A stretch of 64,000 nt of DNA, from NCBI GenBank assembly GCA_002005505.1, contig KV908686.1, positions 28,501 through 92,500 of the forward strand, read 5' to 3'. The notes beneath the pieces were generated by a model. That model did no database searches. It worked only from the letters and a program-made list of their open reading frames with translations, and was not told the DNA's origin. The translations under genes were made by a program, and so were the position numbers. Source of the DNA: Botryococcus braunii. Its lineage: Eukaryota; Chlorophyta; Trebouxiophyceae. Below are positions 9,581 through 55,855 of the stretch, one piece after another. How positions within the stretch are numbered: the first letter of the stretch is position 1; each line of letters opens with the position of its first letter.

Positions 9581-12500
9581 ACCTGCAAGATGGTCATGTG
9601 TATGCGTTCGTGCTTAAGCCCGAAAAAGCCCATGAAGTGCTCTCCGAGTATAATGCCTTGAAGAAGAATGCCCGTCAGATTGGCGCTTATTTTGTTTTGC
9701 CCAAACGAGTTGCTAAGGCAGTAAGTGTTGTTCCCCTTTTAAAAAGTAAAGAGAGAATTATGGAGGGGAGGCGCAATGAAAGTGTAGCTTTGAAAAGTGC
9801 GCATGGGGAAGAGAAAATTGTGGCTCCGTGGTCTTTTGAAGTGTGGTATGACAAGAAGAGGCCCAGAATATCAATGGTGAGAAAAGAACACCCCGAAGCG
9901 CAAATGGTCTTGCGCGGTATGGTTGCAGGGGCAACCGCTGATTGTGCAGTTGATACCGGGGGAGAACTCTCATTCATCTCGGCAGAATTTCTGAAGAAAG
10001 TGAACATAACCCCGCAACAAGTGGATGAATTGGAAGTGGAAGTGGCCACGGGTGACATTGCAAAAGTGGTGCATCAAGTGAAGTTGAGAACAGTTTTCAA
10101 GTCTTTGCCTTGTGTGCATACTTACTATGTGCTACCAAAATTGGCTGGTGACTGTGATGTCTTGTTGGGCATGGATTTCCTTAAGCGCTATAAGGCCAAG
10201 ATTGATGTAGCGGAAGATACGTGTACATTTTGGAACAGAGGGCGAGGCGTGATTGTTAAGTCTATTTCTGCTACTGCTAACAGCGCTAGAAAGAAGTCCC
10301 CTGTCATCTCTGCGAGGCATTTGGCGCGCTGTATGAAGCAAGGCTGTCCAGTGTTTGTGGGCATGGTAAGCAAGAATGAAGGGCATGATAACGAGACACG
10401 CTCGGATGAGCAAGGGCATGAAGATGTTGATAGGCAAGAGGGCAACGAAGAGCGTAACGAAGGGCATAGCGATTATGATCATGATGTTAAAGAGTTCGAA
10501 CCTGCTTTTGGGCCTACAAACAAGGCCGATGTCCCTTCTGATAAAAGTGGATTGAATCACCCCCTTTGTCAACATCTTCGTGCTGAGTTCAGTGATGGCT
10601 TTTCTGAGAAACTAGAAGGCCTACCTCCTGACAGACATCTGTTCCACACTATCCCATTGTATAGTGAACATGTTCCTCCATCCCGACCTGGTTACCGTTT
10701 AGCTTTGCCTGAGTTAAACCGCATTACTGTCCCTGATCGTTATCCTCTCCAGCGGATTGATGAGTTGCTTGATAAACTGCAAGGTGCTGTGTGCTTTACA
10801 AGTCTTGATTTACTCTCTGGCTATCACCAAATTCGCTTGCAAGAGGAAGATGTTCCCAACACTGCTTTCCGTGTCCCTTTTGGCCATTATGAGTTCAAAG
10901 TTCTACCCTTCGGTTTGACAAATGCCCCCGCTACTTTTCAACGTATGATGAATCGCGTATTCCATGACTTTGTGGCTGAAGGCTTTGTGGTAGTGTACCT
11001 TGATGATGTTTTGATCTTCTCTAAAACCGAGGAAGAGCATAAAGAGCATTTGCAAAAAGTTTTCGAGCGCCTACGTGAAGAGAAATTGTTTGTGAAGCTA
11101 AAGAAGTGTTCTTTTTGTCAGCCTGAACTACGCTATCTTGGCTTTATTGTGGGGAAGCATGGAATCAAGATTGATCCGGATAAAGTCGCAGCAGTGATGA
11201 AGTGGGTCGTACCGACGACGGCCACTGAGGTACGACAGTTTTTGGGCCTCTGCAATTTTTCGCGGAAATTTGTGCAAGGGTATAGTCAACTTGCTACCCC
11301 GTTGAATCACTTATTGCGAAAAGGTGTCCCTTGGCTGTGGACTGATGCATGTCAAAAAGCCTTTGATGGGTTGAAGTGGGCCATCACAAATGCCCCAGTG
11401 TTGGCAATCCCTGATCTCTCCCCGGATGCGCCTAAGTTTCAGGTCGTGTGTGATGCCTCAAAGAATGGTGTTGGTGCTGTGCTTGAGCAAAATGGACGCC
11501 CATGTGCCTATATGCGCCGGAAATTTTCTGATGCTGAGAGAAATTATCATGTCACCGAGCAAGAGTTGGCTGCAAAGTGTATGGCATTGATTGATTGGCG
11601 ATGTTATCTCCTTGGGAAACCCTTTGAAGTGGTCACTGATCATGCAGCAAACACGTTTTTGCCGTCCCAATCGGTTTTGAGCCCTCGGCAAGCCAGGTGG
11701 TCGGAGTTGCTCCAGATGTACTCTATAGAGTGGAAGTATGAGCCCGGTCATACTAATGTTGCGGACCCTTTGAGTAGGAATCCAGCGTTCGTCGTTAGTT
11801 CTTTGGTGCACACTCCTAGGGGCTCTGTTCAGCGTAGGGCCGCGATGGGGGGGCGCGGCATAGGTCATCGTATTAGGTGTGCTGTACTTGCGCGCAAGGG
11901 GGCGCGTTCCACTGGAGGCGGTACGGCCCCGCCATTAGGTGGGGTGGTCCCTGGAGCAGCAAGTGACTCGGGCGACGCGTGCCCGGATGGGTTCACCATG
12001 TGGTGCCCCGAGGGGGAAGACTGGTTGCACCGCATACGGACCGCGTATGAGAAGGATCATCTTCTAAGGGATGGGCGTAAAAGACAAAGAGCGAAGTTGG
12101 TCGCTAAAGATGGTTACTGGTTCCGTGGAAAAGCAATGTATGTTCCCGAAATGGCAGATGGTAAAGATAAAGAGCTCAAAGAAGCCATTCTCAAAGAAAA
12201 CCATGAAATGCCACAGGCAGGCCATGTGGGCCGGACTAAAATGTTGGAGAAAATACAACGGTATTTTTGGTGGCCGAAGCTGAGGGAAGGTGTTGAAGAT
12301 TTTCTTCGCGTTTGCGATGCGTGCCAGCGCAACAAGGTGGTTACCTCACTGCCAGCTGGTCTGCTGGAGCCTCTACCAATTCCTTCACGAAGGTGGGAAA
12401 GCATCTCCATGGATTTTATTACTGACTTATCCAAAACGGTGAACGGGAATGATGCTATCCTTGTGGTTGTGGACCGACTGTCTAAATATGCGCATTTCAT

Positions 12501-13581
12501 CCCAACAACTGATCAGCTGTCTGCTGAAGGTCTTGCTGATGTGTTTGTGGATCGTGTGTTTAAGCTGCACGGTATGCCTAAAGAGGTGTTGACTGATCGC
12601 GGAACGGTGTTCACGAGTGCCTTCACTAAAGCGTTGTTTAAAATTTTGGGCACGAGGTCTGTCTTTTCAACGGCTTATCATCCACAGACTGATGGCCAAA
12701 CTGAGCGTGTGAATCGCATTGTGGAAGACATGTTGCGGCATTATGTTAGTCCTACACAACATGATTGGGATGTGCATGTGCCAGCCGCACAATTCGCTTA
12801 TAACAATGCTTATCAAGAATCCGTTCGCACAACTCCATTCCGGTTGGTGTATGGGGAGGATCCTATTGAGCCGTTTGCAGTGATTTCTGGGACCACTTTT
12901 CCGTCGGCTAAAAGATTTGCTATAAAGTTGCATGATGATCTCGCGTTAGCGAAGCGCAACCTGATTGAGGCACAAGATAGGCAGCGCACTTATGCTAACC
13001 AGGGGCGCAGACATGTTGAGTATGAAGTTGGGCAAGAAGTATTCTTGTCCACTAAGAATATTCGTTGGAAGCATCCTGGCACCAAGAAGTTTTTGCCTCG
13101 TTTCATTGGGCCATTCAAGATTTTGGCTAGGATTGGCGCTGTTGCATATAGGCTGGAGTTGCCTAATGAGTACACCATTCACAATGTGTTTCATGTGTCG
13201 CTGTTGAAGCCATATCATAAGGGTGTCAATGTGGCTCCCTCACCTCCGCCAGATTGGATTGATGGTGATTGGGAATACGAGGTGGAGTGTATTTTGATGC
13301 ATCGAGAGATGAAGGCTGCGCACCATGCGCCGAAGAAAGAATACTTGGTAAAATGGAAAGGCTACGGGCCTGAGCGTAACTCATGGGAACCGGAAGCAGG
13401 ATTAATAGAACATGCCCAAGAGGTTGTCCAGGAGTACTGGGCTGGTCGCGCTCTCAATGAGAAGGTGGGAACAAGGAAGCGCACGCAAGGTGTCGCGGCT
13501 GCAGGCAACGGTACTAAGAAGCGAAGTAATGCGCATGCCTCAGCAACTACGAATACTGCGCCTAAGAAGAGGCGGACTTAG
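9577..13581 (+). CDS. pol: G1 Pol with chromodomain (RT deleted in part)
   Basis: About 1330 residues: protease (AVDTGGELSFIS near residue 125), RT (VVYLDDVLIFS near residue 474), RNase H (VTDHAANTFLP), integrase with HHCC zinc site (H...HVGRTK...CDACQ), catalytic Asp in SMDFITDL, Asp in DRGTVFTS and Glu in TERVNR, a GPF module, a chromodomain (WEYEVECI to WEPEAGLI, about residues 1230-1280) and a basic KKR-rich C-terminus. RT lacks about 45-50 residues: YRLALPELNRITVPDRYPL joins directly where other elements have [16 protein letters not shown] and R.C/V.DYR. The deletion is in frame, so the ORF is long but polymerase function is doubtful. The frame begins with GTG at 9577; entry by frameshift from gag is likelier than that start. 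Confidence 0.9.
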   Translation: MNLQDGHVYAFVLKPEKAHEVLSEYNALKKNARQIGAYFVLPKRVAKAVSVVPLLKSKERIMEGRRNESVALKSAHGEEKIVAPWSFEVWYDKKRPRISMVRKEHPEAQMVLRGMVAGATADCAVDTGGELSFISAEFLKKVNITPQQVDELEVEVATGDIAKVVHQVKLRTVFKSLPCVHTYYVLPKLAGDCDVLLGMDFLKRYKAKIDVAEDTCTFWNRGRGVIVKSISATANSARKKSPVISARHLARCMKQGCPVFVGMVSKNEGHDNETRSDEQGHEDVDRQEGNEERNEGHSDYDHDVKEFEPAFGPTNKADVPSDKSGLNHPLCQHLRAEFSDGFSEKLEGLPPDRHLFHTIPLYSEHVPPSRPGYRLALPELNRITVPDRYPLQRIDELLDKLQGAVCFTSLDLLSGYHQIRLQEEDVPNTAFRVPFGHYEFKVLPFGLTNAPATFQRMMNRVFHDFVAEGFVVVYLDDVLIFSKTEEEHKEHLQKVFERLREEKLFVKLKKCSFCQPELRYLGFIVGKHGIKIDPDKVAAVMKWVVPTTATEVRQFLGLCNFSRKFVQGYSQLATPLNHLLRKGVPWLWTDACQKAFDGLKWAITNAPVLAIPDLSPDAPKFQVVCDASKNGVGAVLEQNGRPCAYMRRKFSDAERNYHVTEQELAAKCMALIDWRCYLLGKPFEVVTDHAANTFLPSQSVLSPRQARWSELLQMYSIEWKYEPGHTNVADPLSRNPAFVVSSLVHTPRGSVQRRAAMGGRGIGHRIRCAVLARKGARSTGGGTAPPLGGVVPGAASDSGDACPDGFTMWCPEGEDWLHRIRTAYEKDHLLRDGRKRQRAKLVAKDGYWFRGKAMYVPEMADGKDKELKEAILKENHEMPQAGHVGRTKMLEKIQRYFWWPKLREGVEDFLRVCDACQRNKVVTSLPAGLLEPLPIPSRRWESISMDFITDLSKTVNGNDAILVVVDRLSKYAHFIPTTDQLSAEGLADVFVDRVFKLHGMPKEVLTDRGTVFTSAFTKALFKILGTRSVFSTAYHPQTDGQTERVNRIVEDMLRHYVSPTQHDWDVHVPAAQFAYNNAYQESVRTTPFRLVYGEDPIEPFAVISGTTFPSAKRFAIKLHDDLALAKRNLIEAQDRQRTYANQGRRHVEYEVGQEVFLSTKNIRWKHPGTKKFLPRFIGPFKILARIGAVAYRLELPNEYTIHNVFHVSLLKPYHKGVNVAPSPPPDWIDGDWEYEVECILMHREMKAAHHAPKKEYLVKWKGYGPERNSWEPEAGLIEHAQEVVQEYWAGRALNEKVGTRKRTQGVAAAGNGTKKRSNAHASATTNTAPKKRRT

Positions 13582-29397: not shown

Positions 29398-32364
29398 TTA
29401 AGAAAGGACTGGGGCAGCTGCCACGTCGTCTGCCAAGTGGCGAACATGGGCAAGGGGCTCCCAAGTGTTCTCAGTCTCATCATAGCCCATCCATTTGACC
29501 AAGTACCGCCAAGACTTTCCAACCCTCTTTTTAGCAATGATGGCCTCAACTTCATAAACGCCGCCACGCTTATCTGCATACAAAGGAGGTGGTGAAGTAA
29601 CAGTCACTGGTACAGATGAAGACACATAAGGTTTCAGCTGGGAAACATGAAACACAGGATGAATGTTCACAGTCTCAGGCAGAATAAGTCTAAAAGCACG
29701 AGTACCAACTGCTGCAGCAATAGTAAAGGGCCCAAAATACTTAGCTGATAGTTTTGACGAGAGCCCAGGTGAAAGCTGGTTCTTCCTTGCAGCCAGCAAC
29801 ACCTGGTCCCCCACCTTGAAAGGGTGGTCTCGTCTCTTTCTATCTGCATAAGACTTCTGCCGTTGCTGTGCAGAGGCAAGATTAGACTTGGCACTTTTCA
29901 AGGCAGTCTGCAGCCCCTCAACCCACTCAGACACAGCAGGATTTGCAGAACGTGAAGGAACAGCAGAAGACAAGGGAGTAAGGGGATGGCGCCCGTGATT
30001 CAGGAAGAAGGGTGTCTGCAGTGTGGAAGCCTGGAGAGAGTTATTGTAAGCAAACTCCACCATGCTTAAATACTTGCACCAGTCATCCTGTCTCGGCCCC
30101 ACAAACCCTCTTAACATGTCTTCCATGGTCCGATTCATTCTCTCTGTCTGCCCGTCTGTCTGAGGGTGGTAAGCAGTAGACATAGCAATCTCAGTACCCA
30201 ATAATTTAACAAAGGCCTTCCAAAAATGGCTAGTGAACCTCGGATCTCTATCACTCACAATGGAGGTAGGCATTCCAAATCTCACAAAGACCCTGTCTAC
30301 AAACAGTTGTGCAAGTTGAGGTGCATTGATGGTTTTAGTGCATGCAGCCAAGACACACAACTTAGAAAACCTATCCACAAATACCACAATAGAATCAAAC
30401 CCACAACAGACAGGTAAATCAGTCACTAAATCAAGGGAAACGCTCTGCCAAGGTCCATCTGGAATGGGCAGTGGCTGAAGCAAACCATAAGGTACGGCTC
30501 CAGTTCCTTTAGTGCGCTGGCAGGTGTCACAAGACCTGCAAAAGTCCCTGACTGATGAGCTGAGACGTGGCCACCAAAACTCCCTGCACACTAGCTCATA
30601 CATCTTGTTAATACCAAGATGGCCAGAAAAGGGTGTGGTATGGCACTCTCTCAGCACCTTCTCTCTCAATGCATCAGGTACATAGACCTTCCCTGATTGC
30701 ACAGAATAAGGTACAGAGTCCCTCAATACCAAAACACCTTCATCCACAAGTTTAGCAACTGTGGGATCAGAAACACAAAGCAAGGCAATCTCTTGTAAGA
30801 GAGAAGAGACAGCAACAGAGGAGACATGCATCACTGCAAGGTCAACACGCCTAGACAAGGCATCTGCAACCACATTATCAGTGCCTTTAACATACTTTAT
30901 ATCAGGCATAAACCTCATAATCTCAGTGAGCCAACGTTCCTGCCTACTAGTCCTAACAGGAGCAGTCAGTAAGTACTTTAAAGCCTGCTGATCAGTGTGT
31001 ACAGTAAACTTAGCACCCAGCAATAAATGTTTCCATTTAAGCAAAGCATGAACAAGAGCCAATAATTCTCGGTCAAACGGGGCCAACTTCCTCTCAGGGG
31101 GCTGGAGTTTCCTGGACTCGAAGGCGACGGGCTGCAGTCCCTGGCCTTGATCCTGCTGCAAAACAGCACCCACAGCAAAGCCTGAGGCATCTACATGTAC
31201 AACAAAAGGTTTGTCTAAATCAGGCATCAACAAACAAGGAGGAGAAGAAACAAGATCTTTCAATGCAATGAAGGCTTCCCTCTGGGGTCCCTCCCAGGTC
31301 CAAGGCACATCCTTCTTAAGCAACTCAGTCATAGGATAAGCAACATCTGCAAAATGGTCAATAAAAGTGTCATAGTACTGTGTCAACCCAAGGAACCCTC
31401 TCAACTGTGACACATTACAAGGAGTGGGCCAATCCTGAATGGCAGCAACCTTCCTAGGATCCACCTTAATCCCATCCGGTGTCAACAGGTGCCCAAGGTA
31501 TTCCACCTGCTTGGCAGCAAATTCACACTTAGACCTTTTACAGTAAAATTTATGTTCCCTCAGCATTGACAAGACAGTTCTCAAATGCTCCATATGTTCT
31601 GCAACGGATTTAGAATAGATAAGGATATCATCTAGGTATACCAGTACAAATCTGTCAAGAAAGGGAGCCAAGACAGAGTTCATTACAGCCTGAAAGGTGG
31701 CAGGTGCATTAGTCAATCCAAAAGGCATCACAGTAAATTCATAATGGCCATAACGGGTCTTAAATGCAGTCTTTTCTATACTGTCTTCATGCATACGTAT
31801 CTGATGATAACCAGAAGCCAGATCAAGTTTAGAAAAGATACAACTACCATGAAGTTGTTCAAACATCTCATCAATTCTAGGCAAAGGATGCTGGTTCCTA
31901 ACAGTAATCCTATTCAAAGCTCTATAGTCAATACACAAACGCCAGCCACCATCCTTCTTTGGAACAAATAGAATGGGTGCACCAAAGGGTGAGGTTGATG
32001 GGCGGATGAAGCCTCGCTCCAGGAGCTCCTGTAACTGCGCACGAAGTTCAGCAAGCTGAGCTCCAGACAGTGGATATATACGAGAGGCTGGAGGAGTTGC
32101 GTCCGGCTCCAATCTGATATGGTGGTCTCCAGCACGAGAAGGAGGGAGGCCTTCAGGAAGTCCAGACAGTACATCCTTAAACTCCTGCAAAAGCTCCTCC
32201 AACTCTGGCACATTGTGTGCATCAGTATCTGGACTGTCAGTCACTGCATTTAATTGAACAACATAGATTGATTCACCCAACTTCACCATCTCTTCTACTT
32301 CCATAGATGAGATCACATATTCTGGCATGCCTGACCTCTGACACCCCAACAATACATGTGTTTT
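29398..32364 (-). pseudogene. pol: G4 Pol with chromodomain, 5'-truncated
   Basis: Open from the Copia A junction to the stop at 29398, about 985 residues of G4 origin. RT has RGFIRPSTSPFGAPILFVPKKDG, LDLASGYHQIRM and LVYLDDILIYS; the RNase H-like region has VHVDASGFAVGAVL and VHTDQQALKYLL. Integrase has HHCC (GHLGINK...CDTCQRTK) with Asp in SLDLVTDL, Asp in SDRDPRFTS and Glu in TERMNRTMED, then GPF (YFGPFTIAAAVG) and a chromodomain (YEVEAIIAKKR to NTWEPLAHV). No stop or shift is visible. Protease and Gag are missing upstream. Confidence 0.9.
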
Positions 32365-32567
32365 TGTTATAATAGTGAAGGAACAGATTAGTGACTTTCC
32401 CTCAGAAGAGTAATAGTGGCTAGGCTTCCCTATAGCAATCAATGTGAACAATCTTAGAGGTAGAGTAATGGATGGCAGAACTCTAGAGTTCTGCCATAAT
32501 TGCTCTGGACCGATTCCATTTTGGAGAGAGAGAGTAATGCAATTTGACGCGTCCTTGCGAGAAAGGA

Positions 32568-32571
32568 TATA
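32568..32571 (+). promoter_or_regulatory. TATA box of element A
   Basis: GGATATAGG 28 nt upstream of the first R module (32596). Equivalent TATA-like sites precede the first module by 29-31 nt in C4 (ATATA at 53735-53731, minus), C5 (TATTAAA at 56028) and C1, which suggests that the module starts at the transcription start site. Confidence 0.6.
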
Positions 32572-32595
32572 GGCAGCAGGCATGAAGGGCAAGGC

Positions 32596-33069
32596 ACTTG
32601 TTTGGGACTGAAAGAGCACTCCGGGTGCTTATCTCTGATCAGTTGCCACAAGTGCCAACACATAGTCGGGCTCTGCTTGCTCTCCGACACACAGCAAGAG
32701 ACCCGACCGAGCTTAACACCCTTCGTGCCGGGACATACAGGTGAAGTGCTGCATCTTAGTGTAACTTGCATGGACAAATTGATTAGGAAGAGGTCTAGAT
32801 AAGAGTATTAGAATGTTGCTAATGCTTGGCTCATCGAACAATGGTAATGCGAACTATCTGTCAATGCTTAGAAGAGGTAGTTTGAATTCCTTGGCGTTGA
32901 GAGAGAGCAAGAAGCAATGTAATGACTTGTTTGGGACTGAAAGAGCACTCCGGGTGCTTATCTCTGATCAGTTGCCACAAGTGCCAACACATAGTCGGGC
33001 TCTGCTTGCTCTCCGACACACAGCAAGAGACCCGACCGAGCTTAACACCCTTCGTGCCGGGACATACAG
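32596..33069 (+). repeat. Paired R modules in A 5' LTR, intron-like interval
   Basis: Two apparently identical 145-nt copies, 32596-32740 and 32925-33069. The first ends ACATACAG followed by GTGAAGTG, the second ACATACAG followed by GGAACATT. CTTAAC lies about 28 nt before each CAG. The 329-nt interval 32741-33069 begins GT and ends CAG, and is exactly what is missing from the LTR at 41294. Confidence 0.88.
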
Positions 33070-33094
33070 GGAACATTACGCCCAGAATTGTTCA

Positions 33095-33151: not shown

Positions 33152-33676
33152 ATGGGACGAACGAAGCAGAGCGGGAGGATGTTGACCGGCAGTAAAAGAC
33201 CTTTTATTCCCCCAACTCCTTCACCACCTACATATGATAGCCTGAGGAGAGCTGGAGGAGATACGGGACCGAGGACACCAGAAGAACGAGCATTTCTAGT
33301 GAAGGATTTTGTTAGCCGCGCGTACGGACTGGGCAAAGTCGAACAGCCTCTGTGGTTCAGACGACGATTCTCTGTTTACCCAGCCTACAAAGTAACTGCG
33401 TGGGAGTGTTCATTCATCAACGCGGACCCAGGCTTCGTCACGCGAGCATTATTTGAACGACACCTACAACAGCTCGGAGGACCCAGCAAACCCGAGTATT
33501 GGGAAGAAAGGGCAGCCTACACAGCAGTGGAGTGTGCTCTCGCCACTCTTGACGAGGACTTCCTACTTTCCTTTCTGGGCAGCAGAAAAGGATTCAGCCC
33601 AGAGGAGTGGTGCACGGACACAGACAACGGAGACGAGGACGGGGACTCGCAGCGGTCAGAACCTAACGCAGACTGA
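33152..33676 (+). CDS. Element A ORF1, H3 tail-like with Met at position 9
   Basis: A 174-residue protein beginning MGRTKQSGRMLTGSKRPF. After removal of Met it aligns without gaps to H3 1-16: R2, T3, K4, Q5, R8, T11, G12, K14 and P16 are identical, and H3K9 is replaced by Met. Body motifs are shared with the other ORF1 proteins (PPTYDSLRRAGG, PEERAFLVKDFV, FRRRFSVYPAYK, NADPGFVTRALF) and the C-terminus is acidic (WCTDTDNGDEDGD). The stop lies 11 nt before the gag ATG, so downstream gag expression would need reinitiation, splicing or a second mRNA. The family is unnamed to my knowledge. Confidence 0.8.
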   Translation: MGRTKQSGRMLTGSKRPFIPPTPSPPTYDSLRRAGGDTGPRTPEERAFLVKDFVSRAYGLGKVEQPLWFRRRFSVYPAYKVTAWECSFINADPGFVTRALFERHLQQLGGPSKPEYWEERAAYTAVECALATLDEDFLLSFLGSRKGFSPEEWCTDTDNGDEDGDSQRSEPNAD

Positions 33677-33687
33677 GTAACATCAGC

Positions 33688-35015
33688 ATGGCGAGAAAGA
33701 GATCTAAATCAAGAGAGCCATCTGAGGAGGAGCCCACAACAGAGGAAGCATCTACATCGTCTCCCACACGACAGCCGTGTACACCCAGCACATCAAAGGG
33801 CGAGGGAGATGTACTTCCCAAGGTCATAGCCACTCAAGTCAAAGTGCATATTAAACTGGACCGTCATGGCACAAATTTTGTGGTATGGGACAATGCTTTC
33901 ACTGCTGCCAATAGTGCCAAGGGTTCCTTTCCTGCCATTCAGTCAGCCATGCCTGGAACTATCCATAATGCGGCTGCAATGCTTCTGCTGTATGAGTCAG
34001 TTCCAGAGGAATGGTTAGGAGAAGTGTCAATTAAGCCGTCAGCATATGATGCATATCTGTTTATTTGCAAGAAATTTGTTGGTGGTTACAACACTCAAGC
34101 GAATGCAGACTGGCTGAAGGAAATGTCAAAAGGGATGAGACGTGGAGAAACGATCTCTCAGTATGTGTCTAGAATGATAAATCTCAAAAGCTGCCTGAAA
34201 CGCAATGGACATGACCTCTTGGATGGTCATGTGGCCACCCAGATCGTGCAGGGACTGCCAGCAGCAGCTAATCCTCCCGGGCTGTTGCCCACTGCAGTAG
34301 CTTACCCCCTGGATGATCTGGCAGCTCTCATTTCCACCACTGCAGAGGCCTCTGGCTACAATGATGATGGAGAACAGCCTGCCATGGTGATGAAGGCAAT
34401 GCCTGATCTACGAGAGACTGCTCCAGCCCTGTCCACTAGCGGGGCCAATCCCTCCAAACAGCCAGCAGACTCAGAATCAAGGGGAGAAGTGAGAGGCACG
34501 TGCAACTACTGCCACAGGAAAGGCCATTTTTGGAGAGACTGCCGCAAACGTAAAAGGGATGCAGAGACACAACGCAATGTGGTGGCAGCTGTACAGCAAC
34601 TTGCTGCCATGTGGCCCCAAGGACCGTTTCCTGGTGCACCCCAGCCACCTCCAAGCGTACAGCATGCATTCCCAGGCACTGGAGCGTTCCCACTACTGCA
34701 CCCTCCTCCAGGCCCACCTTCTCCTCCCTCAGAAGGTATGCCATATGTGGTATCTTATAATGTGCTGGATGGCAGTAAACACCAACTGTCCAAACAGTCG
34801 TGGCTTGTGGACAGTGGAGCGTCTGTACATCTCGTGAACAACCTTTCCCTGCTGCATGCCCCTACAGTACATGACCATCCTATTCCACTGCTGCTTGCTA
34901 CCTCTGATGCAACTGGGGGTATTGTTGCTACTGGGTCAGTGTGTCTCATGTCCTCTCAGCATATTCCAGTGTGGCTGCATCATGTCCAGTGTGTTCCCTC
35001 AGCCACCACCAATAT
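33688..35015 (+). CDS. gag-pol: Element A Gag and protease (first part of gag-pol)
   Basis: Starts MARKRSKSREPSEEE at 33688. PCTPSTSKGEGD, then a capsid-like domain (VWDNAFTAANSAKGS, SVPEEWLGE, GETISQYVSRM), zinc knuckle CNYCHRKGHFWRDC near residue 271 and a proline-rich spacer, followed by aspartic protease WLVDSGASVHLVNN near residue 371. G6 interrupts at 35016 in VPSATTNI. With G6 and one AATAT excluded, this part and 37351-41275 are in the same frame and total 5253 nt. Confidence 0.9.
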
Positions 35016-35219
35016 TGTAATAGGTGTTTTGGTCCCTAGCGGTTTGGTAGCGCGTGTACGCGTTGTAGGTGTCTCGAATGTGCCCCTAATGTCGCGAGCA
35101 TAAGGAACGAGAAGAAGACACAAGAGAAGATAGAGCATGAGGCGGATGCCGTCTGTTTGTAACAGACTCTTATTGCTATTTCTTGGTCTCCGTGCCATTG
35201 TGTGATTTTCCCTGTTACA
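35016..35219 (+). mobile_element. G6 5' LTR (204 bp)
   Basis: TGTAATAGGTG...CCCTGTTACA; the PBS starts four bases later at 35224. Confidence 0.92.
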
Positions 35220-35223
35220 TTTC

Positions 35224-35235
35224 TGGTATCGGCGA
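35224..35235 (+). other. G6 primer-binding site
   Basis: TGGTATCGGCGA, the same primer site as the coding Gypsy elements, which ties G6 to them as possible helpers. Confidence 0.7.
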
Positions 35236-35300
35236 CTGGTTGCCGATCGTCGGATTGTGGTCGACCTTTGTGCGTTTTGTTTTGTCTTTCCGTTTCAATC

Positions 35301-36044
35301 ATGGGTAAACTTCGTATTTTTGAGCCTTCGTTGATGACTTTTCACCATTGGGTTGGGGTTGCTGAGTCGTATTTCACGCTCAACAAAACCGCGGAGGAAA
35401 ACAAGGTTCATACGGCGGTTCAGCGGCTTAGTGCCGGGCCGACCAAAACATGGTTATCTTTTGCAATGTCTATGGAACCTGCAGACCGAGTTTCGTGGCC
35501 TCATTTTAAGCGAACCATGGCAATGGTGTACGACTCCGCTGATCATGCACGCACTGCACGGCATAAGCTAGATTCTGCGTCAATGGCGGGTACCCTTGAG
35601 GAGTACACGCAGGAATTCATGTCTTTGGTAGGGGATGTTTCGACGGAGTACACTATCTCGGCTCAAGACCAGGTCCACCTCTTCAAAAAGGGGCTGGCCC
35701 CCTACCTGAAGAGTGCAGTCACCCTTAACCCGGCCACAGGAGAAGACTTTCAGAATTTGGCAGCTCTTCTTCAGTATACAGCTCGGTATGACGCAGGGGT
35801 ATCAGCTGAAGTGAAGACACAGCACATTGCAGACAAGAAAAATGTAGAGACGCTTGTCGTGACGCCTCCCGTCGTCGATGTGTCAGATTTAGCAGTGGCA
35901 GCGGTAAACTTCAAGCGCCGAGCAGACACAGAGCTACCTTATGTGCTGCGTTGTCATAAGTGTACTGGCTTTGGGCATAAGCAGAGTGTCTGCCCCTCAA
36001 AAGATTACTTTGATCAGACTGGCCTCAAGAAGAAGCGTTGGTAA
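35301..36044 (+). CDS. gag: G6 Gag
   Basis: A 247-residue Gag from the ATG at 35301 (MGKLRIFEPSL); the open frame reaches into the LTR, but this start lies after the PBS. Capsid-like domain with HHWVGVAESYFTLNK, MAGTLEEYTQEFMSLVGDV and LFKKGLAPYLKSAV; zinc knuckle CHKCTGFGHKQSVC near residue 225; basic end GLKKKRW. Capsid and zinc knuckle are complete, consistent with packaging of its own RNA while borrowing Pol. Confidence 0.88.
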   Translation: MGKLRIFEPSLMTFHHWVGVAESYFTLNKTAEENKVHTAVQRLSAGPTKTWLSFAMSMEPADRVSWPHFKRTMAMVYDSADHARTARHKLDSASMAGTLEEYTQEFMSLVGDVSTEYTISAQDQVHLFKKGLAPYLKSAVTLNPATGEDFQNLAALLQYTARYDAGVSAEVKTQHIADKKNVETLVVTPPVVDVSDLAVAAVNFKRRADTELPYVLRCHKCTGFGHKQSVCPSKDYFDQTGLKKKRW

Positions 36045-37107
36045 TATGGTAAGTATTTGTTTTGATATTGCTCTGTGTTGATTCATGCACTTGTCAGCAT
36101 GGTCTGAGCGAATGGGAGCTCAGGGTTGCCTTGCTTGTGATTGCTGCATGCTGACCTGTGCATAAGGAGGCCGGACCCGTGTCGAACGGTAGGCCTTGGC
36201 ACGTCCCGTAGGATTTAGGGGCCTGAAGCATCGACGAGGACAGAGTTAGTTTTATCCCTAGACTAGAGGAGTCTCTATCTCATACTTTTTCTTAACCCTT
36301 ACTTCACTGAGCAAGTACGCAGGGGCGGAGTCTAGCCATACTGACAAAGGGTGTTTTGCACCCTCACAGGTGCCTGCTAAAATGCCAACTGCACTGCGGT
36401 GGCAGGAGGGGTTCTGCGTGCTCGTCATTCAGTTCTCCTTCAGCAGGTACCCGGGGAGTTTCTCTCCGTGTCAGGGCTTTACGATGCACTGGGAGTAGGG
36501 GCCCCTGCTACTCGGTGACCCTTGTGGTTTTGTTCAGTGGGGTACCAAACAAGCTTAACACTAGTTACGCATGCGTACGTCGATGTTCTAAGGGGGCTAG
36601 TGGGGCTCCTGGGGTTAAACCACAAGTCCTTACGGGAGGGGCTTGGCAGGTCGGGTGGGCCCTCTGGCATCCCTTAGTCACTGGGGGAAGGCTCTATGTG
36701 TGCCAACGGAGTCGCCGAAGAGGGGTTCTCCAGGAGTTAAGACTCCCGAAGACGAATGGAAGGGGGCTGGGCCAACGAGGGAGTCGCCCCTAGTCTGTGC
36801 ATGCCTGGTGGATGAGATGAATGTGCCCCAGCAGTGACAATGGGATCCATCCAGGAGGATAATTAATGCTTGATTGAACCGGTTAAGATATTTTATGCTT
36901 GTCATGTCATGGAGTTGTTTGTGTAAGCTGGACTTGGACTCGGACTTGGACGGGACTTGCTTGCATGTGTGCCTGCCTTGTTTGTCTGTATTGTTGTTAT
37001 ATGGTGGGGACCCCGAATAGACGGCAGAAGGCCGGGGTCTGACGGGAGTGGAGGATGCCCAAGTTTGGGCGTGGCCCGTCTGTTCTATCCGTGTCTCATA
37101 TTGCTCG
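36045..37107 (+). other. G6 3' noncoding region
   Basis: About 1.06 kb after gag. Open frames up to 145 codons exist but show no domain and overlap one another on both strands, so I call none. I see no pol remnant. Confidence 0.6.
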
Positions 37108-37141
37108 GTGAGCGAGGACGCTCACAATAAGGGGGGGAGGA
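37108..37141 (+). other. G6 hairpin and polypurine tract
   Basis: Perfect GTGAGCG-AGGA-CGCTCAC (37108-37125) followed by TAAGGGGGGGAGGA directly before the 3' LTR. GAGCGAGGACGCTC is shared with G1. Confidence 0.75.
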
Positions 37142-37345
37142 TGTAATAGGTGTTTTGGTCCCTAGCGGTTTGGTAGCGCGTGTACGCGTTGTAGGTGTCT
37201 CGAATGTGCCCCTAATGTCGCGAGCATAAGGAACGAGAAGAAGACACAAGAGAAGATAGAGCATGAGGCGGATGCCGTCTGTTTGTAACAGACTCTTATT
37301 GCTATTTCTTGGTCTCCGTGCCATTGTGTGATTTTCCCTGTTACA
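37142..37345 (+). mobile_element. G6 3' LTR (204 bp)
   Basis: Matches the 5' LTR over its whole length by eye; followed by AATAT. Confidence 0.92.
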
Positions 37346-37350
37346 AATAT

Positions 37351-40300
37351 TCTCTCAGTATCTGCTGCTCTGCGTGATGGAATCTGGTTCAGTACAGATA
37401 GACTGGGAGCCTTCACTGCTGTCTCAGGACCGAGTGGTTGGCAGATGCCTGTGAAACCAGAGAATGGTCTCTATTATATCCACAACTGTCTCCCAGTAGC
37501 ACCAGTGAAGGTTCATTATTCAGTGACAGCTGCCTTGAAGAAGAAATGCTCCAAAGGTCTAAGCCACGACTGTGCCAAACGTTTCCTGTGGCACAGCAGA
37601 TTGGGACACCCAGGAGACCCCTGGATGAAACGCCTGAGCAGTGAGCAACTGGTTACTGGCCTAGACACCTTGATGTCCCCCTGTGAAAAGTGTCCTAAGT
37701 ACTGTGAAGCATGCATTGAGGGGAAGCATGCACGTCCCCCATTTGGAGAAAGCTCTAGACCTGCTGAGAAACCCCTTGACAGAATCCACATTGACACTGT
37801 GGGTCCCATATCACCAGCAGCCATTACTGGGGAACGCTTTTGGGTAACTGTAACTGATGAGGCATCTGGGTGGAAGGCAGTGCTGCCAGTGAAGTCAAAA
37901 GATGTAATTGGAGCTGTTGTCAGAGACCTAATTCTGTATTGGCAAACTGAGAAGGAAACTACAGTGAAGTGCATCCGCAGTGACAGAGGGACAGAGTTCT
38001 TAAATGCCAAGTTCAAAGAATTTTGTGCATCCCAGGGCACTAAGCTGGAGACATCTGCCCCATATACCCCTCAGCAGAATGGAGTTGCTGAGAGAGCCAA
38101 CAGAACCCTCAAGGAGCGCACCAGGACCCTCCTCAATTTTGCTGCAGCAAGCCCTGTTATGTGGAAGGAAGCCCTGGAGACAGCCTGCACCCTCCTAAAC
38201 ATGGGACCCAGCACAGGCAGGCCCCTATCTCCCTGCGAAATGTTCATGGGATATAAGCCAGATGTATCCTTGCTGCGCACATGGGGATGCCTTGCATTTG
38301 TGCACGTTCCTGACCAGCAGAGGGGAGCCTTTGCACCAAAGGCTGTGGCTGGGATGTTCACTGGTTACTCTCCAGTATCAAAGGCATATCGTATCTATAT
38401 GGGAGGGGGGATCTGGAGAGAGAGCAGAGATGTTCAATTTGTGGAACACATTCGAGGAGCTACTCGGGTGGGAATGGCTGTTCTCCCTGACCAGCCTCAG
38501 CAGTTCTCGTACCCTGAAGACTTAGCAGAGCCATTGCACAGCAGCAACCCAGTGGTGCCATTGTCACAGCGCAGTATGCAGAATCAGACTGTCAGCAGCC
38601 CATGCTCCAGCAGTAGACCTGACAGCTCCTTCCCGGTACCCCCTGACCAGGCTGCAACTGAGCCTGATAGTCAGGGGAAGCCTTCTCAAGAGGAGGGCAT
38701 TCTCAGTGTGTCTCCCGAAGCAAGCACGGGAGAGCAGCAGCCGGACCTGGATCAGTCCGGGGCTCTGGACGCTATTCAACGACTGGCGCGAGGAAGTGCG
38801 GACAAAGGACAACACCATCAGATATTAGAGCGAGTACAGCAATCACTGCGTAACACGCATCCGGCTACTACCATCCCGCCTCCGGACGGACTGTCGCGGG
38901 CTCAACGCTATGAGCAACGAACTGCGGCTCGAGACATCCTGCTGGCACAGGATAAGGGAGAGAGCTGTGAGCGAGAGGGGATGACTGAAGGTGACACAGA
39001 GTCACAGGGACCAGGGGAAGTGCAGGAATTGGGGCAGGACACCGAGAGACCTGCTTCACTTGTAAGAGATGAGAGGGGGGCAGTCTCTGATCAGACTGCA
39101 GATGGTCCAAGTGAGTTGAGCTGTATGGGTGGGACCTGCTCAGTGCCTGAGAGAAATGTTAGCGGTGAGAACTCTATCAGTGATGCCCAAGGACAATGTG
39201 GTGCCAGCCACGCAAGTGTGGGCCATGCATGGGAGTGTGCTGCTGGGCCTGCGCCCCAGCGCTCATGTCTAGTAGGGAGCAGACAGAGAGAGAGAGAGAC
39301 ATGGGCACAGCAGCAAGATAGACCAAGAGCTCATGCAAGGCAGAATGGTACACATGTCTGTGAGAGTCCTGACGGGACTGCAAACCGTCAGCCATGTGAG
39401 AGTGTGTCTGAGGAGGTGAATCGGAAGCCAAGACAGTGTGAGAACTCCCCCAATTACAAGAGCTTTCCGAGAGGTACCTGTGTTTGGGAGGATGATGTGA
39501 GAGTGGCTGGCAGCAAGCTTGAGAGGGCAAGCTGTGAGCCTAAGAGAGAGAAGGAGCAGAGGGAGAGATCTGGATCTTTACCCACAGTCCCCACATGCAG
39601 TGCGGCGACATTCAGCGAAAGAGTAGTGGATGAGAGTGAGAGTAAGAGTAAGCAAGATCAGGGGAAGCACACTGGGGTGCGTTTTGGGAAGATTAGTGTG
39701 CCTTCAAGTCTGAAGGAGGCCCAACAGTCCCCACAGTGGGAATACTGGAAGGCTGCAATGCAGGAGGAGCAAAACTCCTTAGATGCTCATGAGGTGATGG
39801 AGTTTGTTCCTAGACCTCGTGGGCACAAAGTAATCCCAGTTCACTGGATTTTCTCAGTGAAAATGGATGCTCATGGCAATGTCCTTAGGTTCAAGGCCAG
39901 GCTGGTGGCTCAAGGGTGTAGGCAAATTCCAGGAGTGGATGTGATGGAGGTATTTGCTCCCACCAGCAGTTATGGGTCTAGAAGAGCTTTACTGTCAGTG
40001 GCTGCACAGGAGGGTCTTGAAATTCACCAGGTGGATGTCAAGACTGCGTTTTTAAATGGTGAATTAGAGGAGGAGGTCTATGTCACACAACCTCCTGGGT
40101 TTGAGAATGGGGATGGGAACACTGTGTGTCGCTTGAAGAAGGCACTGTATGGCCTGAAGCAAGCTCCAAGGGCATGGCATAAGACCCTTAATGAGAAGCT
40201 ACATACCATGGGGTATGAGGTGTGCAAGAGTGATGCTGGGGTCTATGTGAAATGTTCTGTGGATGGAGGGAAATCCTTTGTGCTGATTTATGTTGATGAT

Positions 40301-41275
40301 CTGTTGATAGTCTCGAAGGGCATGAGTGAGATTGAGAGAGTGAAAGGGTTGTTGAAGCAGGAGTTCACCATTCATGATCTAGGAGAGGTGAAAGATTTCT
40401 TGGGCTGCCAAGTGATGAGAGATAGAGAGAAAGGGTTGATTTCTTTGAGTTGCATACCAAAGATTGATGCCCTAGTTGAGAAATTTGGGCTGGATCTGGA
40501 GTCTGTGGGGCCTGACACCCCTATGACTAAGGATTTTGTGGCCACACAGCGACCGATGTCCAAGGACAACAGTGCCAGCATTGGAGCTGGGAGTCCCTTA
40601 CCACCAGGGCACAGATATTGTGAGCTGGTTGGGTCACTGTTGTACATTGCAAACACCACAAGGCCTGATATTTCCCAGGCTGTGGGAGTGCTTTCCAGGT
40701 ACAGGATTACTCCCACCACTGCTCACTGGAATGAAGCCATCAGAGTGTTGAAGTATCTGATGGCTACCAGGGATCTTATGTTAGTACTTGGGGGGAAGGA
40801 CACAGAGCTGGAGGGCTTTGTGGATGCAGATTATGGTGGTGATCAGGATCACAGGTTCTCCACTACTGGTTACGTAATTCGTGTGTTTGGAGGAGCTGTA
40901 GTTTGGGGAAGCAAGAAGCAGTCTGCAGTGGCCACATCCACTGTAGAGGCTGAGTTTATGGCGGCAAGTGCAGCTGTCAAAGAGGCAAATTGGATGAAGG
41001 GATTCCTGGAAGAAATTGGTATTTCTCCTTGGATTGTGAAGATCCACTGTGATAATCAGGGATGCATCAATCATCTCAGAAATCCAGTGTTCTCAAAACA
41101 TACCAAGCACATTGCAATCAGCTTTCATTTTGCTCGGGAAGCTATTGCATTGGGACAGGTGGATGTGAAATACGTTCCTTCTGCTAGGAATGTGGCAGAT
41201 ATATTTACCAAGCCGTTGACAAGGCAGGTATTTCAGGGCCATCGTGAGGCTCTAGGACTAGCCAAGTTTTTGTGA
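37351..41275 (+). CDS. gag-pol: Element A Pol: integrase, RT, RNase H
   Basis: Continues the A polyprotein. Pre-integrase zinc region (LWHSRLGHPGD...CEKC..YCEAC); integrase core with Asp in IHIDTVGP, Asp in SDRGTEF and Glu in NGVAERANR; long Ser/Glu-rich linker with one RQC..SPNYKSFPRGTCVWEDD motif; RT with KTAFLNGELEEEVY, YGLKQAPRAW and LIYVDDLLIVS (about 40280); RNase H with DADYGGDQDHRFSTTGYV and EAEFMAAS. The frame is open to the TGA at 41273-41275. It reads as an intact Copia pol whose only lesion is G6. Confidence 0.92.
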
Positions 41276-41293: not shown

Positions 41294-41694
41294 TGTTATA
41301 ATAGTGAAGGAACAGATTAGTGACTTTCCCTCAGAAGAGTAATAGTGGCTAGGCTTCCCTATAGCAATCAATGTGAACAATCTTAGAGGTAGAGTAATGG
41401 ATGGCAGAACTCTAGAGTTCTGCCATAATTGCTCTGGACCGATTCCATTTTGGAGAGAGAGAGTAATGCAATTTGACGCGTCCTTGCGAGAAAGGATATA
41501 GGCAGCAGGCATGAAGGGCAAGGCACTTGTTTGGGACTGAAAGAGCACTCCGGGTGCTTATCTCTGATCAGTTGCCACAAGTGCCAACACATAGTCGGGC
41601 TCTGCTTGCTCTCCGACACACAGCAAGAGACCCGACCGAGCTTAACACCCTTCGTGCCGGGACATACAGGGAACATTACGCCCAGAATTGTTCA
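41294..41694 (+). mobile_element. Shared A/B LTR with a single R module (401 bp)
   Basis: Identical in outline to the A 5' LTR but 329 bp shorter. U3 (with palindrome 41403-41424) runs into one module (41525-41669) and then straight into GGAACATTACGCCC. The missing piece equals the GT...CAG interval of the other LTRs. The product fits either a cDNA made from spliced RNA or recombination between the two modules. Confidence 0.9.
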
Positions 41695-41751: not shown

Positions 41752-42276
41752 ATGGGACGAACGAAGCAGAGCGGGAGGATGTTGACCGGCAGTAAAAGAC
41801 CTTTTATTCCCCCAACTCCTTCACCACCTACATATGATAGCCTGAGGAGAGCTGGAGGAGATACGGGACCGAGGACACCAGAAGAACGAGCATTTCTAGT
41901 GAAGGATTTTGTCAGCCGCGCGTACGGACTGGGCAAAGTCGAACAGCCTCTGTGGTTCAGACGACGATTCTCTGTTTACCCAGCCTACAAAGTAACTGCG
42001 TGGGAGTGTTCATTCATCAACGCGGACCCAGGCTTCGTCACGCGAGCATTATTTGAACGACACCTACAACAGCTCGGAGGACCCAGCAAACCCGAGTATT
42101 GGGAAGAAAGGGCAGCCTACACAGCAGTGGAGTGTGCTCTCGCCACTCTTGACGAGGACTTCCTACTTTCCTTTCTGGGCAGCAGAAAAGGATTCAGCCC
42201 AGAGGAGTGGTGCACGGACACAGACAACGGAGACGAGGACGGGGACTCGCAGCGGTCAGAACCTAACGCAGACTGA
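41752..42276 (+). CDS. Copy B ORF1, H3 tail-like with Met at position 9
   Basis: 174 residues; I saw no amino-acid difference from the A ORF1 (one silent change near 41913). It is intact although the downstream gag-pol of B is broken. Same layout: PBS 41695-41709, ORF1, 11-nt gap, gag. Confidence 0.8.
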   Translation: MGRTKQSGRMLTGSKRPFIPPTPSPPTYDSLRRAGGDTGPRTPEERAFLVKDFVSRAYGLGKVEQPLWFRRRFSVYPAYKVTAWECSFINADPGFVTRALFERHLQQLGGPSKPEYWEERAAYTAVECALATLDEDFLLSFLGSRKGFSPEEWCTDTDNGDEDGDSQRSEPNAD

Positions 42277-47548: not shown

Positions 47549-48253
47549 TGTTATAATAGTGAAGAACAATTAGTGACTTTCCCTCAGAAGAGTAATAGTG
47601 GCAGGCTTCCTAAGCAATCAATGTGAACAATCTTAGAGGTAGAGTAATGGATGGCAGAACTCTAGAGTTCTGCCATAATTGATCTGGACCGATTCCATTT
47701 TGGAGAGAGAGAGTAATGCAATTGACGCGTTTGCGAGAAAGGATATAGGCAGCAGGCATGAAGGCACGGCACTTGTTTGGGACTGAAAGAGCACTCCGGG
47801 TGCTTATCTCTGATCAGTTGCCACAAGTGCCAACACATAGTCGGGCTCTGCTTGCTCTCCGACACACAGCAAGAGACCCGACCGAGCTTAACACCCTTCG
47901 TGCCGGGACATACAGGTGAAGTGCTGCATCTTAGTGTAACTTGCATGGACAATTGATTAGGAAGAGGTCTAGATAAGTATTAGAATGTTGCTAATGCTTG
48001 CTCATCGAACAATGGTAATGCGAACTATCTGTCAATGCTTAGAAGAGTAGTCTGAATTCCTGGCGTTGAGAGAGAGCAAGAAGCAATGTAATGACTTGTT
48101 TGGGACTGAAAGAGCACTCCGGGTGCTTATCTCTGATCAGTTGCCACAAGTCCAACACATTCGGCTCTGCTTGCTCTCCGACACACAGCAAGAGACCGAC
48201 GAGCTTAACACCCTTCGTGCCGGGCATACAGGGAACATTACGCCCAGAATTGT
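47549..48253 (+). mobile_element. Copy B 3' LTR (about 705 bp, two modules)
   Basis: Starts TGTTATAATAGTGAAG after AAGGGGAAG. Both modules are present (47771-47915 and 48094-48231), the first followed by GTGAAGTG and the second by GGAACATT. It has many small deletions relative to the A LTR, densest in the second module. Homology stops at GAATTGT (48253), three bases short of the expected end. Confidence 0.85.
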
Positions 48254-53140: not shown

Positions 53141-53192
53141 AGCAGAATACTTTGCCCAAGTCATACATTTTACATGCCCCAGCAGAAGAGTT

Positions 53193-53206: not shown

Positions 53207-53935
53207 TGTAAACTTCTGAGTTCAGCGTTCCCTGTATGACCCGGCACGAGGGTGTTTAGCCCGGCGTCACTCTTGTTGTATGTCGAGTAACAAGCAGTGG
53301 CGACTGTGAATGAGATGACTTGACTGGCAACAGTTAAGTAACAAACACCCGAAGTGCTTTTGATGTCCCAATCAAGTGTTACAATGCTTATTGCTCTCTC
53401 TCATCACTCAGCAATTCAAACTACTCTATCTACGAATTTACTGATAGTCTGCATTACCGATGTCCGATGAGCTAAGCAGTAGCACCTTTCTATTACACAC
53501 TATCTAGACCCTTTCCTAATCCATTGTTCTTGTGTATGTGATGTCCTGACAACAGTTTACCTGTATGACCCGGCACGAGGGTGTTTAGCCCGGCGACACT
53601 CTTGTTGTATGTCGAGTAACAAGCAGTGGCGACTGTGAATGAGATGACTTGACTGGCAACAGTTAAGTAACAAACACCCGAAGTGCTTTTGATGTCCCAA
53701 TCAAGTGCCTCATTCCTTCGAGCCAGGCGCATATAGCCTTTCGAGCAAACCGTGTCTGATTACCTCATTCTCCCTTATCAACATCAAATTGGTCTAGATT
53801 GGTTCTGGCAGAACTCCTAGGTTCTGCCACCTATTACTCATTCTAATAAATGTTCTCACTGGTAATTGAAGCTGATCTGGCCACCATTACTCTTCTGAGG
53901 GAAAGGCACCAAAATGTTCCTTCACTATTATAACA
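53207..53935 (-). mobile_element. C4 5' LTR (729 bp)
   Basis: Minus strand TGTTATAATAGTGAAGG...TTTACA. U3 has the conserved box CTTTCCCTCAGAAGAG (53905-53880), an inverted repeat GGCAGAAC / GTTCTGCC (53807-53828) and a TATA-like site at 53735-53731, 29 nt before the first module. Confidence 0.88.
53232..53706 (-). repeat. Paired R modules in C4 LTR
   Basis: Two 146-nt copies with one mismatch: first 53706-53561, second 53377-53232 (minus order). The first ends ATACAG followed by GTAAACTG, the second ATACAG followed by GGAACGCT. CTAAAC lies about 28 nt before each CAG. The interval 53560-53232 is 329 nt. Confidence 0.85.
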
Positions 53936-54976
<1,041 letters not shown>

Positions 54977-54978
54977 TA

Positions 54979-55369
54979 CCGTACCGTCGCAAAATATTGA
55001 CCCACGACGTTTTTGGGGGGTCAAAATTAAATTTATGAATAAACCGCCGTTTGAGGGGGGTCAATATTTTGCGACATTATTTTCTGGAATTTTTTCCAGC
55101 ATAGGGACGTCTACGAGGTGTAGGAGAGTTCTCGAGACACTTTGACATCATACAAAAATTCGGTGATGAAGGTTTGGGCCAATTAAGTGTTATTCAGTGC
55201 TGATAAAGGTTAGGATATGAGGATATTAAGAATATTTTTAACTGTCTTGAGAGTGGGGGTCAATAATTTGCGCCATTATTTTTAGGATTATTTCTTATTT
55301 TTAATTAATAAATCGGGTTTTTTGGGGGGCCAAAATAAAAATATGGGTCAATCTTTTGCGACGGTACGG
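54979..55369. mobile_element. 391-bp terminal-inverted-repeat element (MITE-like)
   Basis: Ends are inverted repeats of about 26 bp: left CCGTACCGTCGCAAAATATT followed by GACCCA, right the reverse complement with one mismatch (TGGGTCAATCTTTTGCG then ACGGTACGG). TA flanks both sides (54977-54978 and 55370-55371), fitting Tc1/mariner-type targets, though AAT is equally possible inside an AAT array. Two internal direct copies of GGGGTCAATATTTTGCGAC-like sequence (about 55057 and 55256) repeat the right end. There is no transposase frame. Confidence 0.7.
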
Positions 55370-55371
55370 TA

Positions 55372-55816
55372 ATAATAATAATAATAATAATAATAACAAC
55401 AACAATAATAACAACACTAATAATAATATAATAGTAATAATAATAGTAATAATAATAAGAATAAGAATAAGAATAATAATAATATTAATAATAATAAGAA
55501 TAATAATAATGATGATGATGATAGTGATAATAGTGAATATAAGGACATTAAATTTTAATGATAATGATAATAATAATAATAATGAATATAATAGTAATAA
55601 TAATAATAATTATTATAATTATAATAACGATAATAATAATAACGATAAATTAATGTTACTATCAATAATAATAAGAATAATAATAATGAGATTAATAATA
55701 ATAATAATAATAACAACAATAAGAATAGTAATAATAATAATAATGATAATAGTAAGAGCAATAACAGGATTAGTAGTAGTAATAGTAATATTAATAGTAG
55801 TAGGATTAGGAGGAGC

Positions 55817-55853
<37 letters not shown>
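55372..55853. repeat. Degenerate AAT then AGT microsatellite
   Basis: AAT-rich with many variant units, becoming (AGT)n at about 55809-55853, where it meets the C5 5' LTR. Confidence 0.9.

Positions 55854-55855
<2 letters not shown>

Follow-up and report, generated by a model that had tools for sequence, protein, structure and literature searches.

Copia elements of the window and their first open reading frame

The window, i.e. the whole 64-kb stretch of DNA that was analysed, contains five elements (A, B, C4, C1 and C2) in which a small frame, ORF1, lies ahead of a gag-like frame. Element A is a Ty1/copia LTR retrotransposon according to its Pfam domains, an integrase followed by RVT_2. Its integrase and reverse transcriptase part (37328..41275, + strand) features gag_pre-integrs (3.2e-10), rve (1.6e-07) and RVT_2 (8.9e-66) in a single frame, at 86-134, 147-248 and 822-1066, respectively, within 37328-41272, and its gag-type ORF2 (33688..35103, +) gave weak Retrotran_gag_2 and Pol_BBD matches below the cut-off. 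Beyond ORF1, the domain scan covered the frames of A and C4. The gag-integrase frame of C4 (50138..52600, −), directly 3' of C4 ORF1, yielded copia-type integrase matches (gag_pre-integrs 6.6e-10, rve 1.4e-07, SH3_retrovirus 2e-18) and, as scanned, stops short of the reverse transcriptase. The pol of A is split by an insertion of about 2.1 kb (35016-37345), flanked by 204-bp identical direct repeats and presumably holding a further gag-like frame.

Self-comparison of the window shows A and B in tandem about one common LTR. The approximate 5' LTR of A (32365..33091, +), whose borders are alignment ends, and the approximate 3' LTR of B (47549..48253, +) agree at 96.6%, their ends being approximate, and the LTR between the two elements (41294..41691, +) is shorter, with one internal repeat. 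The copia LTR regions of several subfamilies also display direct duplications of about 140-150 bp (4569-4712/4891-5034, 5942-6089/6266-6412, 32596-32745/32925-33073 and 53228-53378/53557-53707), and a long simple repeat coding for Leu/Ile/Asn at 53843-55865 creates spurious ORFs on both strands.

ORF1 of A (33152..33676, +) starts about 60 nt past the LTR, and 11 nt separate its stop from the gag ATG. From its translation and an AlphaFold2 model, the 174-aa product comprises an H3-like tail, a Pro-rich linker, a helical body and an acidic C-terminus. The protein of B (41752..42276, +; MGRTKQSGRMLTGSKRP...) is identical to that of A, and the three other copies are those of C4 (52616..53140, −; MARKRPTGRMSTGGRRP), C1 (6501..6998, +; MAKRRRPKQTARKTT) and C2 (3979..4476, −; MAKKRTKQTARKTT). 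In C4, an in-frame ATG at 53164, eight codons upstream, renders the start ambiguous. AlphaFold2, using a 21-row alignment, returned an all-helical body with a mean pLDDT of 75, and values under 50 at residues 1-3, 6-15 and 155-169; on this model the tail and acidic end, both of low confidence, are presumably disordered and the body folded. Pfam and fold searches provided no family match above cut-off and no fold match of weight for the body. No Pfam histone match was found in the four window ORF1s, the H3 likeness being confined to the tail.

Likeness of the ORF1 tail to histone H3

Residues 2-17 of ORF1 of A (33155..33202, +) correspond to H3 1-16, with a Met codon at the place of H3K9 (33179-33181); the equivalent tail and Met codon lie at 41755-41802 and 41779-41781 in B, and at 53137-53090 and 53113-53111 in C4. 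The tails read GRTKQSGRMLTGSKRP in A and B and ARKRPTGRMSTGGRRP in C4, to be compared with ARTKQTARKSTGGKAP in H3. The initial annotation had claimed that, once the initiator Met is removed, the A/B and C4 tails each share nine of 16 residues with H3 1-16 in ungapped alignment, Met standing at position 9, and that C1 and C2 keep the lysine. We recovered precisely this: 9/16 identities without gaps and Met at 9 in both Met-bearing tails, and KQTARKTT in both C1 (KQTARK at 6522-6539) and C2, the latter containing H3 2-9 (RTKQTARK, 4464-4441) exactly.

Such matches are seldom equalled by composition-preserving shuffles: one in 200,000 for the A/B tail, one in 200,000 for the C4 tail and none in 200,000 for the C2 tail, scored at 9/13 for the best of five offsets. 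The tail of a further copy, L101 (ARTRQTGRMSTGG...), has ten H3 identities, again equalled by none of 200,000 shuffles. Over the thirteen tails so treated, ten were equalled by 0 to 13 of 200,000 shuffles, the weaker ones being L075 (171), P0012 (187) and P0011 (433). Nine tails had 6-10 identities to H3 1-16 vs 0-4 to six decoy 16-mers (reversed H3, two later H3 pieces, H4, H2A and H2B).

Profile searches recovered the same likeness. When a whole-protein profile of the four ORF1s was run against 177,635 PDB sequences, the best 60 of its 95 matches consisted entirely of N-termini from H3 or CENP-A (best E 0.031); with a 20-row ORF1 profile, such N-termini represented 59 of the best 60 of 68 matches (best E 0.14). 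Three single ORF1 sequences searched against the PDB retrieved no H3 match, and for this reason the argument is built on register, recurrence and selection rather than on any single alignment score. Three host genes encode H3 with the canonical tail (ARTKQTARKSTGGKAPRK), and what the N-terminus of ORF1 copies is the stretch of H3 around residues 2-12, the likeness stopping near residue 13.

Recurrence across the host genome

The genome searched was the 176-Mb assembly of 989 contigs that contains the window. ORF1 homologues, for which a search of the source genome had been proposed, proved abundant: each of our overlapping homology searches scored at least 150 matches from about 800 candidates, and those to ORF1 of A were mostly near full length. 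A KQTARK codon pattern, in which Ser may replace Arg, occurred at 380 genome places and its reversed control at none, and the Met-form start pattern M(A/G)RT(K/R)Q(S/T)GRM, degenerate at several codons, at 163 vs none for the control. For comparison, an H3K27 epitope pattern was found at 36 places vs 17 for its control.

Eight pattern-match regions were read. Three were canonical H3 genes and one a CENH3-like gene; the rest comprised two KQTARK occurrences beside simple repeats outside ORF1, one KQTASK and one decayed ORF1 with an intact tail. The CENH3-like host gene (L113, G000:C224:266100-267200) begins MARTKQTARKSVGGNRP, a canonical H3 tail through K9. An 18-mer, AAGCAAACAGCCAGGAAG, accounted by eye for 78 of the first 100 KQTARK places listed, some of them full-length C2 types. 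In two copies from this commonest KQTARK subfamily, L089 and L128, ORF1 is shortened to an intact 90-aa frame, in which the tail and the first part of the body persist and the distal body is gone; in L128 (L128:1040-1309), about 283 nt of ORF1, equivalent to 3981-4263 of the window, are missing and a gag frame follows downstream.

ORF1-related proteins numbered 14. Nine were gene models of Botryococcus braunii, including one with 99% identity to ORF1 of A; four were jgi-sourced and presumably metagenomic, on contigs no longer than 50 kb, and one was an ENA fragment. These relatives point to B. braunii or a very close relative, a trebouxiophyte green alga, as the probable host.

Lysine and methionine clades

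Position 9 follows the clades, being Lys in one, Met in the other and Arg in the four jgi-sourced (presumably metagenomic) relatives. In a body-only tree of 64 rows, a branch supported at 98/92 sets the Lys rows apart, and another at 100/100 does so for the Met rows, along with L105 and P0006, the latter having a gene model that begins within the tail; midpoint rooting places the four Arg rows between them. Met occupies position 9 in 30 of the 31 distinct Met-clade rows, the lone exception, L105, having Ile. The Met clade thus combines a Met at the target lysine with an Arg before it, and the Lys clade has this Arg without the Met.

Arg at position 8 was found in 31/31 Met-clade and 24/25 Lys-clade rows, written with five Arg codons in each clade. 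Parsimony on the Met clade gave no amino-acid change and five codon changes for R8, one amino-acid change at position 9 and at least seven at position 10. Exceptions at position 8 are two jgi relatives, P0008 and P0009, which read QTAQRR, and L091, a Met-clade copy dropped by the core-motif filter described below, which reads RHTGQM with Gln at this position. Most rows display Q-(T/S)-(A/G)-R or something close to it, the C4-type rows having Pro at position 5. In the Lys clade, not only K and R but also Q, T and A are nearly fixed, while the preceding basic residues drift, a pattern that a simple basic tail does not predict.

The two clades retain different parts of H3: K4, A7 and K9 are kept by the Lys clade and mostly lost in the Met clade, and A1, S10, G12 and G13 the reverse. 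Their shared ancestor hence probably resembled H3 more than either clade does today.

Translation starts also differ. The ATG used here is the only one in 16/31 Met-clade rows, an upstream in-frame ATG occurs in 10/31 and 5/31 are undecided; in the Lys clade, an in-frame stop before the ATG leaves no alternative start in 23/25 rows, and T stands at −3 in 25/25.

Selection on the tail

A codon model was fitted by segment to 25 Lys-clade and 31 Met-clade distinct ORF1s. Of the frames from fetched loci, 85 passed the filters, which required a core motif, a sequence free of masked letters and, at the proper distance, a Met with A, G or E as the next residue; 73 of these frames were distinct and 56 remained after removal of near-identical sequences. 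Excluded in this way were copies whose start or tail was broken or whose core had changed (for instance L019, L073, L077, L078, L079, L085, L091, L095 and L096). A frame change has removed the tail from L077 and L078, and tail residues are still visible in L073, L079, L085, L095 and L096. The divergent body relative L080, with no recognisable tail or start, was also left out.

In the Lys clade, dN/dS, which the filter may push somewhat downward in the tail, was 0.040 (0.010-0.102) for KQTARKT and 0.205 (0.185-0.225) for the body, with 0.276 for the residues before KQTARKT, 0.155 for the linker and 0.333 for the C-terminus; the likelihood ratio of KQTARKT vs the whole was 14.4. In the Met clade, with the same downward tendency for the tail, the values were 0.189 (0.125-0.274) for the tail, 0.462 (0.351-0.603) for the linker, 0.186 for the body and 0.171 for the C-terminus. 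Allowing each segment its own synonymous rate gave 0.052 for KQTARKT vs 0.198 for the body in the Lys clade, and 0.261 for the tail vs 0.167 for the body in the Met clade. Against a dN/dS of 1, the likelihood ratio was 31.0 for KQTARKT (own rate) and 23.4 for the Met-clade tail. The tail core is hence the tightest segment in the Lys clade. In the Met clade, constraint on the tail is close to that on the body and stronger than that on the adjoining linker.

The ORF1 tail is under purifying selection at the protein level. A tail varying freely beside a conserved body was not seen, and the histone-mimic reading of the initial annotation survives this segment-wise check. We consider it almost certain that the H3K9-like tail of ORF1 is real, recurrent and selected.

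Fit of the tail with H3K9 enzymes and host silencing

According to a review of SUV39H1 and SUV39H2 (PMC8303541), SUV39H1 absolutely requires R8, and SUV39H2 and G9a are described alike. The same review gives the SUV39H1 preferences as K, and more weakly R, at position 4; T, S, A or Y at 6; N, Q, A, L, P or W at 7; S, K, R or T at +1; T and small residues at +2; and G, K or Q at +3. Set against these lists, the Met-clade and Lys-clade rows fall within the accepted residues in 31/31 and 25/25 cases at position 4, 30/31 and 24/25 at 6, 31/31 and 24/25 at 8, 25/31 and 25/25 at 10, and 31/31 and 24/25 at 11. Position 7 is inside the set in 0/31 and 25/25 rows and position 12 in 30/31 and 0/25, the misfits being Gly at 7 in all 31 Met-clade rows and Asn or Cys at 12 in all 25 Lys-clade rows. 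The tail substitutions therefore mostly suit SUV39-family specificity, a good but incomplete fit for which the reference is SUV39H1, not an algal enzyme.

The inhibition of H3K9 methyltransferases by K-to-M peptides, on which the initial annotation relied, is indeed established in other systems (PMC5030085, PMC7700585). An H3K9M peptide inhibits Clr4 in vitro, residues 3-12 are ordered in the G9a pocket, and a phosphate or Asp at S10 weakens H3K9M binding, according to PMC5030085. By analogy, the L, G or R found at position 10 in 9/31 Met-clade rows would abolish the S10 phospho switch.

On the host side, a candidate H3K9 methyltransferase is tentatively identified from one SET exon, with SUVH6 as its best match (E 2.5e-10) and MLL-type H3K4 enzymes next at 3.9e-10. 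A second locus, L120 (G000:C126:15500-23500), has SRA exons followed by a RING-like exon; we take it to be a UHRF/VIM-like host gene, and as such it is a possible further target of H3-tail mimics. The earlier framing in terms of plant silencing fits poorly, the named relatives coming from Botryococcus, a chlorophyte and not a land plant. In Chlamydomonas, PMC3225300 describes a SU(VAR)3-9-type SET3p with H3K9me1 acting in transgene silencing, MUT11/SET1 with H3K4me1 silencing transgenes and transposons, and the H3T3 kinase MUT9p tied to silencing. With H3K9me1, H3K4me1 and H3T3 so implicated, the region copied by ORF1 is the region that one green alga, on that description, uses for silencing.

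Proposed function and alternative explanations

H3-tail mimicry itself is well supported. That ORF1 acts as a retrotransposon-encoded H3K9-epitope mimic engaging H3K9 writers or readers is a further step, for which the sequences leave our confidence evenly divided. Once the initiator Met is cleaved off, the tail, being disordered, would enter the substrate groove of a SUV39/SUVH-class enzyme or the pocket of an H3K9 reader. A Met tail could occupy that site as a K-to-M competitor that cannot be methylated; a Lys tail could compete as a substrate or, after methylation, attract chromodomain readers as bait. Through its folded body and acidic end, ORF1 might keep the tail near the particles or DNA of the element, the net effect being a local relief from H3K9-based silencing for new or transcribed copies. 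In its more specific version, the Met-clade ORF1 would be a K-to-M inhibitor of a host H3K9 methyltransferase with an anti-silencing role, acting in trans or close to the nucleic acid of its element, and the sister clades with Lys or Arg would be decoys; we advance this tentatively, as plausible but somewhat short of an even prospect. It counts against the mimic reading that one mechanism must cover K, M and R forms. Also weighing against it are the off-preference residues at positions 7 and 12, the exceptions at R8, the divergent L080, the Met-clade tail dN/dS under its own synonymous rate, the upstream ATGs of the Met clade and the tentative identity of the host methyltransferase.

The tail could instead be a chromatin tether, by which a host H3-tail reader would bring the integration complex to chosen chromatin with silencing enzymes uninhibited. 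This would be the inverse of chromodomain integrases, themselves H3K9me readers, and the window does contain two gypsy-type frames (9577-13581 and 29398-32619) with what we take to be a chromodomain-like end, at 13200-13581 (+) and 29400-29600 (−). The low-confidence tail and acidic end beside a predicted folded body would suit a linker protein, and a K9 epitope should serve readers equally to writers. Many readers of the H3 N-terminus need the A1-R2-T3 start, however, which the Lys clade has shifted by 2-3 residues. The Met form would moreover be useless to a methyl-dependent reader, the fission yeast chromodomains tested not binding H3K9M as reported in PMC5030085, and we deem tethering unlikely. 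Mimicry of the extreme H3 N-terminus (R2, T3, K4), directed at pathways of the MUT11/SET1 or MUT9p type and with K9 secondary, would agree with the A/G-R-T-K/R start left by Met removal in 15/31 Met-clade rows and with the silencing roles of H3K4me1 and MUT9p in Chlamydomonas (PMC3225300). It is quite improbable given that position 3 is Lys in 16/31 Met-clade rows and T, P, A, S or I in the Lys clade, where extra residues precede R2 and KQTARKT is the tightest segment. As an observation in its own right, possible H3K9me readers, in the form of the gypsy chromodomain-like ends, and H3K9-tail mimics coexist in one genome.

Two further explanations dispense with mimicry as a present function. Retroelement proteins often carry K/R-rich tails, and a basic tail for RNA binding or nuclear import, resembling H3 by chance or composition, would account for the K/R-rich tails seen here and for the three individual ORF1 sequences without an H3 match in the PDB. 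Little credence can be given to it when shuffles of the same composition seldom reach the H3 match (between 0 and 13 in 200,000 for all but three of the thirteen tails), when the non-basic Q, T and A of the Lys clade are nearly fixed and their basic neighbours drift, and when K9 alone is enriched among the two H3 epitopes tested. The tail might otherwise be the fossil of a captured H3 exon. Each clade retains H3 residues absent from the other, as expected from an ancestor probably nearer H3, and short runs of host H3 DNA seem, by eye, to match ORF1 DNA. Yet dN/dS is well below 1 in KQTARKT and the Met-clade tail, the likeness ends near residue 13 while the host H3 intron comes after about codon 33, and the body has no histone-fold match. 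A fossil devoid of present function is thus extremely improbable and is ruled out by the selection result; capture may nonetheless be the origin of the tail.

Comparison with known systems

Histone mimicry in viral and host proteins was already known, as was K-to-M inhibition in mutant histones and EZHIP. Among the titles and abstract openings seen in the open-licence literature on histone mimicry and transposable elements, none describes an H3 tail mimic encoded by a transposable element. If the H3K9-mimic reading is correct, a single algal genome has hundreds of sites coding for natural, diversified ligands of the H3K9 pathway, in K and M forms here and R forms in relatives; should the Met form in addition be an inhibitor, a mobile element would have evolved K-to-M inhibition for anti-silencing. 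This would bear on how retrotransposons defend themselves against H3K9-based silencing, could be tested with peptides, and could reveal which flanking residues a natural K-to-M inhibitor requires.

The closest parallel combines an H3-like stretch with Met at the target lysine in a non-histone protein, EZHIP (CXorf67), in which an Arg presumably also directly precedes the Met. According to PMC6513997, EZHIP inhibits PRC2 and touches the active site of EZH2 much as H3K27M does. EZHIP is a host gene product related to K27, whereas ORF1 is a retrotransposon frame with a K9 context and a putative inhibitor. An H3K9M oncohistone-type mutant likewise has Met at K9 after Arg8 (PMC5030085), but is an engineered true histone, unlike the natural, non-histone ORF1 with its Gly at position 7. 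Influenza A NS1 is, as ORF1 would be, a parasite protein with a terminal tail copying the H3 N-terminus; as presented in PMC12937675, it copies the H3K4 part at its C-terminus, whereas ORF1 copies the K9 part at its N-terminus, belongs to a retroelement and exists in Lys, Met and Arg versions. The host proteins LIG1 and WIZ have a short H3K9-like motif methylated by EHMT1/2 (PMC10611923), a short linear motif in their case and the N-terminal tail of a mobile-element protein in ours. VANC, from the VANDAL elements of Arabidopsis, is an element-encoded anti-silencing protein, a role only proposed for ORF1. Compared by description, VANC differs in binding the noncoding DNA of specific VANDAL copies, with no histone-like tail mentioned in the abstract (PMC10398659).
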